DNA of 64,000 bases from Chthonomonadia bacterium (lineage in GTDB: Bacteria; Armatimonadota; HRBIN16), in assembly GCA_013314755.1 (NCBI GenBank), contig JABUFA010000007.1, forward strand, positions 1 to 64,000. Reading direction: 5' to 3'. The position numbers and the translations under genes were made by a program. Positions 27,427-34,546 of this stretch are shown here, piece after piece (positions within the stretch are counted from its first letter, which is position 1; each line of letters starts with the position of its first letter). Below the pieces are notes generated by a model. That model saw only the letters and a program-made list of their open reading frames with translations. It did no database searches and had not been told where the DNA came from.

Positions 27427-28284
27427 ATGAACCATGCATCTTTCGAGGGCAAGTACATCATTAGCGTATCGCTGGAGGCAGTGACCGGACTGCACATCGG
27501 GGGCACGACCACCGGCTTCGAAATCGGAGGGGTGGACAACCCCGTTATCCGCGACCCGCTGACCGACCAGCCGTACATTCCCGGCTCGTCGCTGAAGGGC
27601 AAACTGCGCCACCTCACCGAGTGGAGCCTGGGCTTAATTGACAAGCACCCCAAGCACAAGGTGTACGGCGCGTATCACTGCGAGGAGCTCAAAGGGCCCC
27701 GACCGACCGACAATCCTGCACGGTGGGACAGAGTGTACCTGCTGGGCAGGCTGTTCGGGGTAGCATCCGACGATACGCAGGTGCGCCAGACCGCCGGTCC
27801 CACCCGCCTGACCGTGCGCGACTCCTTCCTGACCAACGGCTCGGTGAAGGAGCTGGAGCGCATCCTGGGCGAGGGCATCTTTACCGAGCTCAAGACCGAG
27901 AACTTTCTGGACCGCGTGACCTCCGAGGCGAACCCGCGCTCGCTGGAGCGGGTGCCCGCTGGCGCCACCTTCTCGGTGCAGATGGTGTTAGACCGGTACG
28001 CGGGCGACGGCGCAGAGCTCCTGCGCCAGCTGTTCGTCGCCATGCGCCTGCTGGAGGACAGCACCCTGGGCGGCAGCGGCTCGCGCGGAAGCGGTCGGGT
28101 GGCGTTCCGCCGGCTGCGCGTGACGTGGCGCGGGCTGAACTATTATCTGGACGGCGAACCCGAACGGGTGCTGTTCCCACCCGAACAGGTAGCGGAAGAG
28201 GAGCAAAACGAGATTCTGTACTTCCCCCTGCGCTATCTGCAGGCGGAGGGCAGGTTCGAGAAATACTTCGGACGGGAGGAGTAA
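27427..28284 (+). CDS. csm3: Csm3 backbone subunit and target-RNA nuclease
   Basis: The 285-aa RAMP protein forms the backbone filament that holds the crRNA and cleaves target RNA at 6-nt steps. The family motif IGGVDNPVIRDPL contains the catalytic aspartate D37, followed by YIPGSSLKGKLRHLTEW. A glycine-rich loop SGSRGSGRVAFRRLRV lies near residue 218. Both the catalytic and binding motifs are intact. It has a good ribosome binding site (GGGGAGGAAAG) and is followed by csm4 after 3 nt. Confidence 0.96.
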   Translation: MNHASFEGKYIISVSLEAVTGLHIGGTTTGFEIGGVDNPVIRDPLTDQPYIPGSSLKGKLRHLTEWSLGLIDKHPKHKVYGAYHCEELKGPRPTDNPARWDRVYLLGRLFGVASDDTQVRQTAGPTRLTVRDSFLTNGSVKELERILGEGIFTELKTENFLDRVTSEANPRSLERVPAGATFSVQMVLDRYAGDGAELLRQLFVAMRLLEDSTLGGSGSRGSGRVAFRRLRVTWRGLNYYLDGEPERVLFPPEQVAEEEQNEILYFPLRYLQAEGRFEKYFGREE

Positions 28285-28287
28285 CCG

Positions 28288-29334
28288 ATGCCAGTGGCAG
28301 TGGTCCACCTTCAGCCACGGGGTTCGGTGGTGGGCGCGCCGCCGCCGTCCCCTACCCTTTACGGTGCGCTGTGCTGGGCGACGGCGGTGCTGTACGGCGA
28401 GGAGCAGGCGCAGGCAATGGCGCAGGAGCTCACCTGCACGGACGCCTTCCCTCTTGCCCACAGCGGACAGGGATACACGGTGCGCTTCTTCCCCATGCCT
28501 GTCCTGCCCCAGCCGGTCACTCCCCTGCCCGAACGCACCCTGAGCCACAAACAGCAAGCGGTGCGCCAGCTCAACCTGTTCAAACGGCTCAAGCGGGCGC
28601 GATACCTCAGCGAGGGGCTGTTCACGCGCTACCTGCAGGGCGACCTCTCCGCGAGCACGCTTGCTGATGCCCTGCAGGAGGGACAGGCGGTGCTGAGAGG
28701 CAACTGCCTGATGCTGGCGCAGGAGGCACAGGACGTGGGATGGACCTCTCGCGCCACCGCGCCGCTCGCCTCCGCCGATGTCACTCGCAACGAAATCGAC
28801 CGCTGGAGCCTGGCGACCGCAGAGGGCAGAATGTTCCTGCGCGAGGAGACCTTCTTTGCGCCCGGGGTGGGGCTGTGGTTCGGCGTGCACCTGCCAGAGG
28901 AACAGATGCGCCTTCTGCCCGCCCTCCTGCGCTACCTCGAGGACACCGGCGTCGGCGGGGAGCGGTCGTCGGGCAAGGGGCAGTTCGCCTTCCAGCTGGA
29001 AGAGGGGTCGCTGGCTTTGCCTCAGCCCGCCAGCCCAGACGCCTGGGTGAGCCTGAGCCACTATCTGCCCACGCCGGAAGAGGTGAAGGGGTGGCAGAGT
29101 GCGCCCCGCTATACGCTGGTGTCGTGGCTGGCGCGCTACGAATCCGCCTTCGTGGGGGGACAGCGGGTGTTCAAGCCCCTGCGACGGATGCTGGAGCCCG
29201 GTTCGGTGTTCCCCCTAACAGAACGGCGCGAGGTGTACGGCAGGCTGGTGCGCTCAGGCGAACGGCTGGGACATACCGTGTGGGTGTGTGGACGCGCCCT
29301 GCCCGCCTTTGCGCAGAGAGGAGGTGACCTATGA
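28288..29334 (+). CDS. csm4: Csm4 subunit (5'-handle binding)
   Basis: The 348-aa protein is a Csm4/Cas5-like RAMP that caps the complex and holds the 5' tag of the crRNA next to Cas10. It starts VVHLQPRGSVVG.PPPSPTLYGALCWATAVLYG, a Csm4 pattern. GVGGERSSGKGQFAFQL near residue 229 and the C-terminal LGHTVWVCGRALP are family-like. It overlaps csm5 by 4 nt. Confidence 0.92.
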   Translation: MPVAVVHLQPRGSVVGAPPPSPTLYGALCWATAVLYGEEQAQAMAQELTCTDAFPLAHSGQGYTVRFFPMPVLPQPVTPLPERTLSHKQQAVRQLNLFKRLKRARYLSEGLFTRYLQGDLSASTLADALQEGQAVLRGNCLMLAQEAQDVGWTSRATAPLASADVTRNEIDRWSLATAEGRMFLREETFFAPGVGLWFGVHLPEEQMRLLPALLRYLEDTGVGGERSSGKGQFAFQLEEGSLALPQPASPDAWVSLSHYLPTPEEVKGWQSAPRYTLVSWLARYESAFVGGQRVFKPLRRMLEPGSVFPLTERREVYGRLVRSGERLGHTVWVCGRALPAFAQRGGDL

Positions 29335-30509
29335 AAACGGAGAGCTATATCGTGAAGGTTGAGGTGCTGACGCCCGTGCATGTGGGTAGCGGCGATAGCC
29401 TCAACGCGCTGAACTATATCCGTCAGGGCGACACGCTGTACGTGCTGGACCCCGACCGCTGGATGGAGTGGCTGGGCGGCAGGCAGGGCGCCATTGAGCG
29501 ATACATCGGCTGGGTGGAAGCCAGCCTGGGGCGGGGCGTGAGCCTGAACGAGTTCCTGCAGGAGCGGCTTCGCCTCAACCCGTCCGAGGTGGCAACAGCG
29601 GCAAAGCAGGTGAGCCGATACGCCGTGCGCCTGGAGGAGTGCGGCACTCCCGACCCCATGCGCGGCTTCCGCACGCACATCCGCGACGCCCGAAACCGCG
29701 CCTACCTGCCAGGCAGTTCGCTGAAGGGGGCAATCCGCACCGCGCTGATTGAAGACCTTCTGCTGGAGGAGGACGCCCTGCAGGCGAGGTTGGTTGCCCC
29801 GTTGAAAAGGATAGACGGTGGGGGCGACCCGCGCCGGCTGCGCCGGGAGGCGCGACAGGTATGGCAGGGGATGGAAGCGGGCACCCTGCGCGGGGGCGAA
29901 ATGGATGCGCACTATGACCTCCTGCGCTTTGTGCAGGTGTCGGACAGCGAGCCGGTGGCGCACGAGCAGGTGAGCGTGCGCAAGGTTCGTTCGGAGGGCA
30001 CGAACCGAAACACGAACACCTGGCTGGAGGCGTTGCGCGAAGGCGCGGGGACGCGCGTGAGGCTGTCGTTCCAGCCCGAGGCTCCCCTGCGTCTGCTTGG
30101 ACTGGAGGGGGAGCTGGCGCAGTATCTGCGTCCGCAGGAGCTGTTCGCGGTGCTGGCAGAGCGGGCAGAGCGCCGGCTGGAGCGGGAGCTGGCGTATCCC
30201 TATCCGCCCGCGGTGAAGCAAAAGGTGCAGGATTTGCTGGCGCAGAACAGCGAAGAGACCCCCCTGCTGTGCATCGGCTGGGGACAGGGCTACCTGGGCA
30301 CGACGGTGATGGGGCTGGTGCTGGACGAGAGCGCGGAGGAGTATGCGCAGGCGGTGCGCCGGCTACTTCCCATCCTGCCGCGGCGCGGGCAGGGCATCGA
30401 CGCGAGACGCTTTCCGAAGACACGCCGGGCGGTGCGCGATACGAAGGATACCGCACGCAGTCCGTTAGGCTGGGTACGGCTGGTGCTGGAGGAAGCATCT
30501 GCGGGATGA
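29331..30509 (+). CDS. csm5: Csm5 subunit
   Basis: The 392-aa RAMP protein caps the other end of the Csm filament and is needed for 3' maturation of crRNA. LTPVHVGSGDSLNALNY and YLPGSSLKGAIRTALIEDLL are the expected motifs, and YLGTTVMGLVL lies near the C-terminus. It ends the operon, about 420 nt before the CRISPR array on the same strand. Confidence 0.93.
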   Translation: MKTESYIVKVEVLTPVHVGSGDSLNALNYIRQGDTLYVLDPDRWMEWLGGRQGAIERYIGWVEASLGRGVSLNEFLQERLRLNPSEVATAAKQVSRYAVRLEECGTPDPMRGFRTHIRDARNRAYLPGSSLKGAIRTALIEDLLLEEDALQARLVAPLKRIDGGGDPRRLRREARQVWQGMEAGTLRGGEMDAHYDLLRFVQVSDSEPVAHEQVSVRKVRSEGTNRNTNTWLEALREGAGTRVRLSFQPEAPLRLLGLEGELAQYLRPQELFAVLAERAERRLERELAYPYPPAVKQKVQDLLAQNSEETPLLCIGWGQGYLGTTVMGLVLDESAEEYAQAVRRLLPILPRRGQGIDARRFPKTRRAVRDTKDTARSPLGWVRLVLEEASAG

Positions 30510-30514
30510 AGCCC

Positions 30515-30720
30515 TGCGCCGTCGCCCTGAGCGGGGCGAAGAGCCCAGCAGGATTCCGCCCCGGGCAGGACGAAAGGTCTCAAGGGGTGTCGCCCTTCGT
30601 TGTCACCCTGAGCGCAGCGAAGGGTCTTTCTGTGTTGTCACCCTGAGCGAAGCGAAGGGTCTCAAGAGATGCTTCGCTAACGCTCAGCATGACAATGAGC
30701 GTCACCCTGAACAAGTCCTA
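30515..30720. repeat. dispersed palindromic repeats, family C
   Basis: After csm5 the gap 30510-30926 holds no gene. Its first half contains three partial copies of a family whose core reads CACCCTGAGCGAAGCGAAGGG, near 30519, 30605 and 30641, the last followed by GAGATGCTTCGCTAACGCTCAGCATGA in the opposite sense. Related copies occur at 32999-33060, 39555-39632 and 45725-45790. Their ends form long imperfect hairpins. Confidence 0.75.
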
Positions 30721-30756
30721 TTGTCTGAAAAAGACGGAATCGGTGACAAAAAGCCG

Positions 30757-30799
30757 TGTAGAACCTCGATTGGCGACGTCTCAAGCGTGAGGTTCTACA
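30757..30799. repeat. 11-bp inverted repeat upstream of the CRISPR leader
   Basis: TGTAGAACCTC at 30757-30767 and GAGGTTCTACA at 30789-30799 are perfect complements around a 21-nt spacer. It lies 127 nt before the first CRISPR repeat. No T-tract follows, so it does not look like a simple terminator for csm5. Confidence 0.6.
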
Positions 30800-30865
30800 G
30801 GGTCCGTGTAGGGTGCATTGCAGGACCCGCGCAGGACAGGGCGCCTCGCGGGGGAAAGGTGCATC

Positions 30866-30926
30866 TTGACAATTAGATAATTCAACAAAAAAGCCGATTT
30901 TGTTGAATTATATGCTGTTATGCGGC
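30866..30926 (+). promoter_or_regulatory. AT-rich CRISPR leader with 12-bp palindrome
   Basis: The 60 nt before the first repeat are much richer in A and T than the neighbours. They contain a perfect inverted repeat, AATTCAACAAAA (30879-30890) and TTTTGTTGAATT (30898-30909), with a 7-nt loop, ending 17 nt before repeat 1. TTGACA at 30866-30871 looks like a -35, but no -10 lies at 16-18 nt. The leader lies at this end because the far end has the degenerate repeat. Confidence 0.6.
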
Positions 30927-31467
30927 GTAACAACGCTTGCCCCGACGAATAGGGGACTGAAACATATTCGAGTGCTTTAAATGGAGGTACAAGAACCAGT
31001 AACAACGCTTGCCCCGACGAATAGGGGACTGAAACGCGATTGCAGCCCGCGATGTATCGCACGTTCTCGGTAACAACGCTTGCCCCGACGAATAGGGGAC
31101 TGAAACCTGTTCGTGATACGGGCGAATACTGTCATCTCGGAGTAACAACGCTTGCCCCGACGAATAGGGGACTGAAACATTTGCTCAGTCGTTGCTGTGT
31201 GTTGCGTTAGGTTGTAACAACGCTTGCCCCGACGAATAGGGGACTGAAACAGGATACGTGAAACTCGCAGACATGATGAATGAGTTGGTAACAACGCTTG
31301 CCCCGACGAATAGGGGACTGAAACTGGAATAGTCAATGCCCCCTAACTCGCGTCAGGGGGCGTAACAACGCTTGCCCCGACGAATAGGGGACTGAAACTC
31401 CTGGGACAACCACTCAGGATACACGTAGTTGCCCGTAACAACGCTTGCCCCGACGAATAGGGGATTG
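30927..31467 (+). CRISPR. CRISPR array, 8 repeats and 7 spacers
   Basis: Repeats of 37 nt begin GTAACAACGC and end GGGGACTGAAAC. Starts are 30927, 30999, 31070, 31142, 31214, 31288, 31362 and 31435. The first seven are identical. The last (31435-31467) breaks down after GGGGA: the C becomes T and AAAC is replaced by CGTG, which marks the leader-distal end. Spacers are 34-37 nt. The ACTGAAAC end is the type of 8-nt handle made by Cas6, so crRNA is read on the plus strand, the same way as the csm operon. The csm genes just upstream are the obvious partner. Confidence 0.98.
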
Positions 31468-31489
31468 CGTGAGCCGTTCGGACATATCC

Positions 31490-31735
31490 GTGCGACCCGA
31501 AATCGCAGGCAACACGGGACAAAATCTGCTGGCGCAGGTTCCTATGGAGTGCTGAAGCCATGCTTCAGCATTTCAAAGCAGCCCGCAACTTCCGTCCGCA
31601 GGGGTGTTTTTTAAGGCGACCTTGCGACTGGAAGTCGCAGGCAACACAGAACAAAACCTGCTAAAGCAGGTTTCGCTGAAGCAAGCTTCAGCACTCCAAA
31701 GAGGTAAAGGAAGCAAGCTTCAGCACTCCAAAGGG
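31490..31735. repeat. second cluster of family A and B palindromic repeats
   Basis: The gap 31468-31788 has no gene. Family A copies: 31549-31570, a pair at 31680-31700 and 31711-31728 with AGCAAGCTTCAGCACTCC. Family B copies: around 31495-31512, 31575-31600 and 31617-31645 (TGCGACTggaAGTCGCA). The same two families fill 4560-4890. Confidence 0.8.
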
Positions 31736-33107: not shown

Positions 33108-33562
33108 GTATGGAATACTGTATTTTTCAAAAGCAGACTGTGGCTCAACATCGACCCGTTCGTGTCCGATGTGTCGTTGGTTTCAGGCTCGGTCGTTGGT
33201 GGGGGCCTCTGTCTCCATCGGGGATTTAGACGAGGATGAAGTTCTCGGTCTCGGTGAAGGATTCGACCTGCGGATCGACTTCCCCACCGAAAATGTGTCA
33301 GGTAGGCTGATGAACACAGAATTGGTGTCGTGGATACTGCAGGGTACCGGGCTGACCGAGAGCCACTTCCTTGCAAGGTCAGTGAAAAAGCAGGGACAGA
33401 CAATAGGGCCGGGGGACCTACTATACCCTCCTGCATGTGCAGGGCATAGATTCAGGCGGACAAGGTTCCAGCCATCTAACGATTCCAGAGCCGGGCACGA
33501 TTCTGTTGTTCGCGGCTGGGCTGACTGCACCGCTGATGAGCCGTCTGCGCAGGCGCACATAG
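33108..33562 (+). pseudogene. frameshifted remnant of a PEP-CTERM surface protein
   Basis: No single frame is open, but three frames read together give one protein. Frame 3 gives NIDPFVSDVSLVSGSVVGG up to a run of five G near 33200. Frame 1 continues ASVSIGDLDEDEVLGLGEG and, further on, DFPTENVSGRLMNTELVSW, up to a second G5 run at 33411-33415. Frame 2 continues TYYTLLHVQGIDSGGQGSS and ends in a PEP-CTERM signal: PEPGTILLFAAGLTAP, then MSRLRRRT and a stop at 33560-33562. In each case one G too many breaks the frame. The 5' end is unclear; no signal peptide is visible. A perfect terminator hairpin follows at 33595. PEP-CTERM proteins are exported and sorted by exosortase; none is in the window. 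Confidence 0.75.
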
Positions 33563-33594
33563 CCGGGATGTGCTCAAGCTGGTGAACACGAGCG

Positions 33595-33622
33595 GGGGTA
33601 GCCCCGGTGGGCTACCCCGTTT
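33595..33622 (+). terminator. terminator of the PEP-CTERM remnant
   Basis: GGGGTAGCCC (33595-33604) pairs perfectly with GGGCTACCCC (33609-33618) around a CGGT loop and is followed by GTTTTC. It lies 33 nt after the remnant's stop, which supports it having been a real plus-strand gene. Confidence 0.8.
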
Positions 33623-33649: not shown

Positions 33650-33728
33650 TTTGGAGTGCTGAAGCTTGCTTCAGCAAATCCGCACTTGAGACGTTGCCCC
33701 GCTGAAGCATGGCTTCAGCACTCCATAT
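33650..33728. repeat. two family A palindromic repeats
   Basis: GTGCTGAAGCTTGCTTCAGCA at 33656-33676 and GCTGAAGCATGGCTTCAGCAC at 33701-33721, the same elements as at 4560-4890 and 31490-31735. They lie between the terminator at 33595 and the promoter at 33741. Confidence 0.8.
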
Positions 33729-33740
33729 CCGCGCAGGCTC

Positions 33741-33770
33741 TTGACAACTCCTGCCTGTTACGGGCATAAT
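33741..33770 (+). promoter_or_regulatory. strong sigma70-like promoter
   Basis: A consensus -35, TTGACA at 33741-33746, and a -10, CATAAT at 33765-33770, are 18 nt apart. Transcription should begin near 33777 and run through the small unit that ends at 33978. Confidence 0.65.
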
Positions 33771-33798
33771 ACAATTGTCATACTTTGCGAGGTGGACT

Positions 33799-33939
33799 GT
33801 GCAGGTCTGGAACCAACAACTGATACTGGATAACGAGCGGACAGTCGGTGGCTGGCTGTGTGGAGGGATGTCCGCACAGCAAGACAGGCACTGGCGTCAT
33901 CATCGCTTCGGACACGTGATGCGTATTCGGAATAGCTAG
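33799..33939 (+). CDS. candidate 46-aa small protein (or structured RNA)
   Basis: Between a good promoter (33741-33770) and a terminator (33948-33978) there is a GTG-started open frame of 46 codons. GAGG lies 6 nt before the GTG. The product begins VQVWNQQLILDNERTVGGWL and is rich in Trp, His and Arg towards the end (DRHWRHHRFGHVMRIRNS). I know no family. The stop is 8 nt before the terminator stem, as in a compact gene. The same RNA has several complementary segments: GCGGACA (33837-33843) with TGTCCGC (33869-33875), GCTGTGTGG with CCGCACAGC (33855-33863 and 33871-33879), and CGGACACG (33909-33916) with CGTGTCCG in the terminator loop (33958-33965). A non-coding or leader RNA is therefore equally possible. 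Confidence 0.35.
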   Translation: MQVWNQQLILDNERTVGGWLCGGMSAQQDRHWRHHRFGHVMRIRNS

Positions 33940-33947
33940 ACCAGCCA

Positions 33948-33978
33948 AGCCCGCTGCCGTGTCCGCAGTGGGCTTTTT
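33948..33978 (+). terminator. rho-independent terminator just before the HNH gene
   Basis: AGCCCGCTG (33948-33956) pairs with CAGTGGGCT (33966-33974) with one G-U pair, loop CCGTGTCCG, followed by TTTTT (33974-33978). It lies 25 nt before the HNH start codon, so it either ends a separate small transcript or acts as an attenuator of the HNH gene. Confidence 0.75.
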
Positions 33979-34003
33979 CGTTACACCATGCGGGAAGGGA
34001 TCG

Positions 34004-34546
34004 ATGTTGGAGACGGACAGACAGGTACTGGTATTGAACAACGACTACGAGCCGTTGAACGTTTGCAACGTTCGGCGGGCGGTGGTGCTTGTACTGCTGG
34101 GCAAGGCGGAGGTTCTGCACGCCGACGGCATCGCTCTGCACACGGCGGACAAAGTGATTCAGGTGCCGTCGGTGGTGAAGCTGCGCTATCACGTCAAGCG
34201 CCCTCTGCCAGAGCTCAAACTCACTCGGCGTACCATCTTCGCGCGAGACGACTATACCTGCCAGTACTGCGGCTATCGGGGCAAGGACCTGACGGTAGAC
34301 CACGTGATCCCGCGCCGGTTGGGTGGCAGTGACGACTGGGAGAACTTGGTGACCTGCTGTCGCAAGTGCAATCTGAAGAAGGGTGACAAGCCTCTGCATC
34401 AGACGGGGATGACGCTGTTGCGCCAGCCTCGCCGTCCGCGCTACGTGCCGTATATCAGCCTGAGCAAATACATCGAGGGCACGAGGAACGAGGTGTGGCG
34501 CAACTACCTGCCGTTCTTCAGCGACGTCGCTCCCTCTCAGGATTGA
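34004..34546 (+). CDS. HNH endonuclease family protein
   Basis: The 180-aa protein has an N-terminal domain starting VLVLNNDYEPLNVCNVRRAV, found in a widespread group of small HNH proteins, and a C-terminal HNH nuclease. The zinc cysteines are C86-x2-C89 (CQYCG) and C119-x2-C122 (CRKCN). The catalytic D99-H100 (VDHVIPRRLGG) and N114 are all present. I start it at ATG 34004 with a GGAAGGGA ribosome binding site; the open frame reaches upstream to 33959, inside the terminator. It is not an IscB or Cas9 relative, since it lacks RuvC parts and is short. The family's role is not known to me; possibly DNA repair or defence. Confidence 0.88.
   Translation: MLETDRQVLVLNNDYEPLNVCNVRRAVVLVLLGKAEVLHADGIALHTADKVIQVPSVVKLRYHVKRPLPELKLTRRTIFARDDYTCQYCGYRGKDLTVDHVIPRRLGGSDDWENLVTCCRKCNLKKGDKPLHQTGMTLLRQPRRPRYVPYISLSKYIEGTRNEVWRNYLPFFSDVAPSQD

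Follow-up and report, generated by a model that had tools for sequence, protein, structure and literature searches.

A short leader ORF ending at an intrinsic terminator: a proposed translation-coupled attenuator of the HNH endonuclease gene in Armatimonadota

An HNH endonuclease gene of a Chthonomonadia bacterium (phylum Armatimonadota) is preceded by a strong promoter, a 46-codon leader ORF and an intrinsic terminator. We propose, with a probability of about 0.68, that this unit is a transcription attenuator switched by translation of the leader, as in pyrBI. The unit was found in a stretch of 64,000 nucleotides from contig JABUFA010000007.1, and "the window" denotes that whole stretch. An earlier note on the window had offered three options for the unit, namely a small protein, a leader attenuating the HNH gene or a stand-alone RNA. 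The attenuating leader, in which the ORF would be the operative element, is the best of these, because the ORF is coding and the unit is tied to the HNH gene across the phylum; the RNA switch envisaged in the same note was not supported.

All parts of the unit lie on the + strand. The consensus -35 and near-consensus -10 hexamers described previously form a sigma-70-type promoter (TTGACA-18-CATAAT, 33741-33770) that matches at 11/12 positions and is followed by a nearly invariant ACAATTG reaching 33777. The leader ORF, MQVWNQQLILDNERTVGGWLCGGMSAQQDRHWRHHRFGHVMRIRNS, occupies 33799-33939, starts with GTG and stops with TAG. Its ribosome binding site, previously judged plausible, is the Shine-Dalgarno GAGGTG at 33789-33794. 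Seven nucleotides past the stop lies the intrinsic terminator (33947-33978), with an 11-bp stem (33947-33957/33965-33975), the 7-nt loop CGTGTCC and a T-run to 33978; as claimed, it ends 25 nt upstream of the HNH start codon, an ATG at 34004. A Shine-Dalgarno region for the HNH gene (GGGAAGGGA) was read from the sequence at 33992-34000. The promoter and terminator calls are pattern-based, and single-sequence scans barely exceeded shuffle expectation (2 promoters found vs 0.8; 3 terminators vs 2.4).

The presumed target of the attenuator, the HNH endonuclease family gene (34004-34546), encodes 180 aa in which a domain search found PF01844 (60.8 bits) and PF14279 (55.8 bits) and no further domain. 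Other labels for this locus were considered and rejected. PADLOC matches spanned the HNH motif alone, and a defence-system label was rejected. A HEARO or IscB-type RNA beside an HNH ORF, with an IscB/IsrB-type protein, was likewise rejected: Rfam gave no match, the protein has 180 aa with the HNH domain only, and the IscB model reached 76 bits (cut-off 175) and aligned to no more than the HNH part.

Several features of the upstream neighbourhood were recorded. A palindromic element, GCTGAAGC..GCTTCAGC (33656-33730), abuts the HNH promoter; the genome contains some 50 partial copies of it, which marks it as a REP-like dispersed repeat. Farther upstream, the ORF at 33437-33562 carries a C-terminal PEP-CTERM sorting tail (PEPGTILLFAAGLTAPLMSRLRRR; TIGR02595, 25.1 bits); together with an ORF in another frame that overlaps it (33169-33585), it looks like the remnant of a frameshifted PEP-CTERM gene. 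This apparent remnant (33169-33618) is followed by a terminator of its own at 33595-33618. In the interval 27427-31560, RAMP-like ORFs resembling type III CRISPR genes adjoin a CRISPR-like array with repeated units of the GTTTCAGTCCC type, judged from ORF translations only.

Regions upstream of related HNH genes were compared within the genus, a check that the earlier note had proposed. The promoter, the ORF with its stop position and the terminator were all kept in 8/8 genomes that have the HNH gene (the window's own genome, G000, included). Neither the unit nor an HNH match was present in G007 (77% complete) and G008 (80% complete). The alignment is continuous from the -35 hexamer into the HNH gene, and farther upstream several genomes diverge. 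The -10 hexamer is CATAAT in the window vs TATAAT in the seven congeners, and the pattern TTGACAN{16,20}ATAATACAATTG occurred once per genome in 7/10 genus genomes, exclusively at the HNH unit. AGGT of the leader Shine-Dalgarno was invariant in the eight genomes, and the Shine-Dalgarno region of the HNH gene was kept in seven of them. The terminator stem was paired in 88/88 cells (8 genomes), including one compensatory change from G-C to A-U. This comparison indicates that the unit is not a chance arrangement.

The ORF was open in all eight genomes, with GTG 2-7 nt past the Shine-Dalgarno and the stop at a single alignment position. Its variable columns were distributed 10/7/20 over the three codon positions. 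In the coding-potential test, likewise proposed earlier, pN/pS was 0.29 vs 0.88 ± 0.27 in column shuffles, with 0/500 shuffles as low. The other two frames of the same strand gave 2.1 and 1.6; one reverse frame was also low (0.32) but is interrupted by stops. By this pattern of substitution, the leader ORF is protein-coding. Conservation within the genus is confined to the last ~24 residues: most of the peptides share QQD.HWRHHRFGHVMR.R in a conserved C-terminal half, and the N-terminal half is variable. A conserved C-terminus with a variable N-terminus is the pattern expected of arrest peptides, and similarity between families is weak. No known small-protein family matched the peptide, and a lone PDB hit was at chance level. 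When 291 genomes of the phylum were searched with a profile of the genus peptide, strong matches were confined to the eight genus members; at the best weak match (L027, in G271), the locus was read and contained no such unit.

The HNH gene itself was present in 135/151 sampled Armatimonadota genomes, with a single match per genome; the nearest named relatives are Chthonomonadales, Capsulimonadaceae and Armatimonadetes. For 127 of these HNH genes, representing 34 families with anonymous labels (f12, f19 etc.), the sequence upstream was compared under one terminator scoring rule. A terminator lay at most 160 nt upstream in 91/127 of them. The corresponding counts were 6/75 for HNH relatives outside the phylum (11/80 minus five Armatimonadota loci), 11/97 for other genes of the same loci and 26/635 for shuffled sequences. 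Promoters with at least 11/12 matches, most of them 190-340 nt ahead of HNH, were found in 46/124 regions of the phylum vs 0.3% of dinucleotide shuffles; in other phyla the count was 8/77, so that a strong promoter is commoner in Armatimonadota. These comparisons indicate that, across the phylum, the unit goes with the HNH gene. It counts against the proposal that there are loci without a leader, some of them (f19, part of f45) with a promoter-like site near HNH; in loci without a leader, the device was lost or never present. The combination of leader and terminator was not found among the HNH relatives compared from outside the phylum. In two Eremiobacterota loci (L223, L235), an ORF of ~100 codons that ends in LAITQ(M/L)LTETRM.FVRKRG precedes HNH, and its stop overlaps a terminator; this may be another, separate example of such a device. 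In open-access papers, we found no leader upstream of an HNH gene and no attenuators from Armatimonadota.

The position of the leader relative to its terminator was the constant feature across families. In most loci with a terminator, a short ORF ends on it or just before it. Among 63 curated leaders, the median distance from stop to terminator was 0 nt, and 58/63 lay at 9 nt or less, a spacing that is partly imposed, as only stops between 26 nt within the terminator and ~13 nt ahead of it were considered. Ordinary genes, taken from the window and from the compared loci, had a median of 19 nt (n=13). It also counts against the proposal that a terminator close behind the stop codon also occurs at such genes, 4/13 of which were at 9 nt or less. 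The exception among families is f12 (16 loci), where an ORF with DTIIR or a close variant spans the terminator and stops -17 to +11 nt from the HNH start. In most loci its ATG precedes the D by exactly 19 codons (M-x18-DTIIR), and the codon test favoured coding (pN/pS 0.66 vs 0.96, 1/300). Within L113-L142, several f12 loci have a TATAAT-like hexamer 8-15 nt before the leader ATG. The 5' untranslated region of the f12 leader mRNA may therefore be almost absent, and the consistency of a leaderless start across f12 is only suggestive.

In the proposed mechanism, RNA polymerase would start at the strong promoter, transcribe the 46-codon leader and, by default, stop at the intrinsic terminator. 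If a ribosome kept pace with the polymerase and completed the leader, it would cover the terminator from the leader's end, no hairpin would form and the polymerase would enter the HNH gene; otherwise transcription would terminate. An alternative RNA hairpin would not be required. When a stop codon occupies its A site, a ribosome covers ~12 nt past the first base of that codon. With this reach, the stem would be hidden at its base in the window and to a greater extent in most other families. E. coli ribosomes almost completely repress a terminator that follows a stop codon by a few nucleotides, and full termination is reached only >27 nt beyond the stop codon (PMC4824070). We therefore propose translation-coupled attenuation for the unit. 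We infer, for this model, that the leader is translated and the terminator works in vivo, that the ribosome occludes the hairpin, that the nascent peptide causes a pause and that a signal exists.

Occlusion alone does not explain the conserved C-terminus, because pyrBI needs no conserved peptide. Leader peptides differ by family, and outside a short C-terminal motif they have little in common, but they do resemble one another. The C-terminal sequences include RRLRLVEDSLCHSQHFQ (f39), SLRLLEDGLCVAQHYF (f38), LADSFEHVHLQ (f24), DDGFGHVYFQH (f29), DTVFHIR (f20) and, in the window, HRFGHVMRIR. In a leave-one-family-out profile, hand-picked leaders ranked first among the ORFs of their locus in 36/67 cases (5.2 expected) and rule-picked leaders in 28/68 (5.3 expected), a set for which controls with random other ORFs gave 3, 7 and 6 first ranks. 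The conserved C-terminus suggests a nascent-peptide pause or sensor. On arrival of the ribosome at the stop codon, these residues would not yet have left its exit tunnel, and could slow or arrest the ribosome there, possibly on a signal. That the peptide senses a signal is a guess. Tentatively, the leaders could be nascent-peptide sensors throughout the phylum, with the C-terminus (D-S/T-x-F-x-I/H-R in its variants; FGHVMR in the window genus) holding the ribosome on the terminator in response to a cellular signal and so switching on HNH. We consider this extension possible rather than probable. Were it correct, the gene so controlled would be the nearly universal HNH nuclease of the phylum.

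The same peptide data bear on a different explanation, that the ORF encodes an ordinary small protein and shares an operon with HNH; the terminator, by passing a fixed fraction of transcripts on to HNH, would determine the proportion of the two products, and the protein would act in trans, e.g. by binding HNH. A conserved basic peptide rich in His, Trp and Arg, with a good Shine-Dalgarno and strict linkage to HNH, is what such a gene would show. However, only the last ~24 residues are conserved in the genus and the families have little more than the C-terminal motif in common, a divergence that would be unusual for the trans partner of an HNH protein conserved at 65-67% identity between families. 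The f12 ORF, moreover, crosses the terminator. On balance, we regard this explanation as unlikely.

A further candidate for the site of control is the segment CGGACACG (33909-33916, + strand), which lies inside the leader ORF, is complementary to the terminator loop and has a putative role. Both sides are invariant in the eight genomes: pairing of CGGACACG with CGTGTCCG was kept in 64/64 cells, and this invariance leaves no covariation. Such invariance fits a contact between leader and loop, and fits equally well the FGHV codons combined with some constraint on the loop. It also agrees with a model in which read-through is controlled by a protein, e.g. a general anti-terminator or HNH itself, bound to the leader or to the loop of the terminator at a site including CGTGTCC and CGGACACG, as nearby synonymous sites vary while both segments do not. 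Yet other families do not preserve the loop sequence, and neither the coding constraint on the leader nor the f12 ORF across the terminator is explained by a bound protein. We assign this model a low probability.

The earlier note had pointed to mutually exclusive complementary segments as a possible RNA switch, and we compared the window with a classical attenuator or riboswitch operating through such hairpins. The segments are indeed all present in the window. The 206-nt transcript folded better than 200 dinucleotide shuffles (z -3.0), and much of the excess comes from the terminator. Two of the three pairings, GCGGACA/TGTCCGC and GCTGTG/CACAGC, were nevertheless broken in every congener (paired at 32/56 and 28/48 cells), and the covariation term of the consensus fold was about zero. 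Across 95 loci, complementarity between leader and terminator was no greater than in shuffles (mean z 0.18), and an RNA anti-terminator is unlikely as a common principle because it stands at chance level in these loci. Rfam covariance models gave no match at the gathering score; at a lax threshold, the sole match (17 bits, on the opposite strand) was at chance level. The note's statement that the unit belongs to no known riboswitch class agrees with this result. A classical amino-acid attenuator was also rejected, as we saw no mutually exclusive anti-terminator and terminator hairpins, and the terminator begins 7 nt past the leader stop in the window instead of >20 bp. Control by RNA hairpins is accordingly very improbable. 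The remaining option, a stand-alone small RNA gene merely adjoining HNH, agrees with a compact promoter-to-terminator unit but is scarcely credible, given substitutions that follow codon positions, the lack of an Rfam match, linkage to HNH in many families and a gap of only 25 nt between terminator and HNH in which a promoter scan found no further promoter.

Attenuation by a translated leader can be set beside known systems. Attenuators of the trpL/hisL type likewise consist of a promoter, a leader peptide, an intrinsic terminator and a regulated gene; these use an RNA anti-terminator and place the terminator >20 bp behind the leader stop (PMC4824070). Here, in contrast, no anti-terminator was seen and the distance from stop to terminator is around 0-9 nt. 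Among arrest leaders, TnaC blocks Rho-dependent termination, whereas the terminator here is intrinsic, and arrest and an inducer are hypothetical. The likeness to TnaC-type leaders is a short leader with a conserved C-terminus at the stop, where a held ribosome would prevent termination downstream (PMC8429421).

The closest likeness in design is to pyrBI of E. coli, with its leader PyrL. There too, a promoter is followed by a short leader ORF that reaches an intrinsic terminator ahead of the regulated gene; the pyrBI leader ORF runs across its terminator and the ribosome prevents the hairpin (PMC4824070, PMC5021804). The leaders described here end on, across or a few nucleotides before the terminator (7 nt in the window; median 0 for the 63 leaders), and in f12 the terminator is inside the leader ORF, as in pyrBI. 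The systems differ in target gene and phylum, in the stop codon of the window genus, which stands before the terminator and not beyond it, and in the C-terminus, which is conserved here. The pyrBI type also involves UTP-sensitive polymerase pausing in the leader, a feature that our proposal does not include. If our reading is right, an attenuator that uses the ribosome and an intrinsic terminator alone would be conserved across a whole, little-studied phylum, and it would be a device like that of pyrBI, yet with a conserved peptide.
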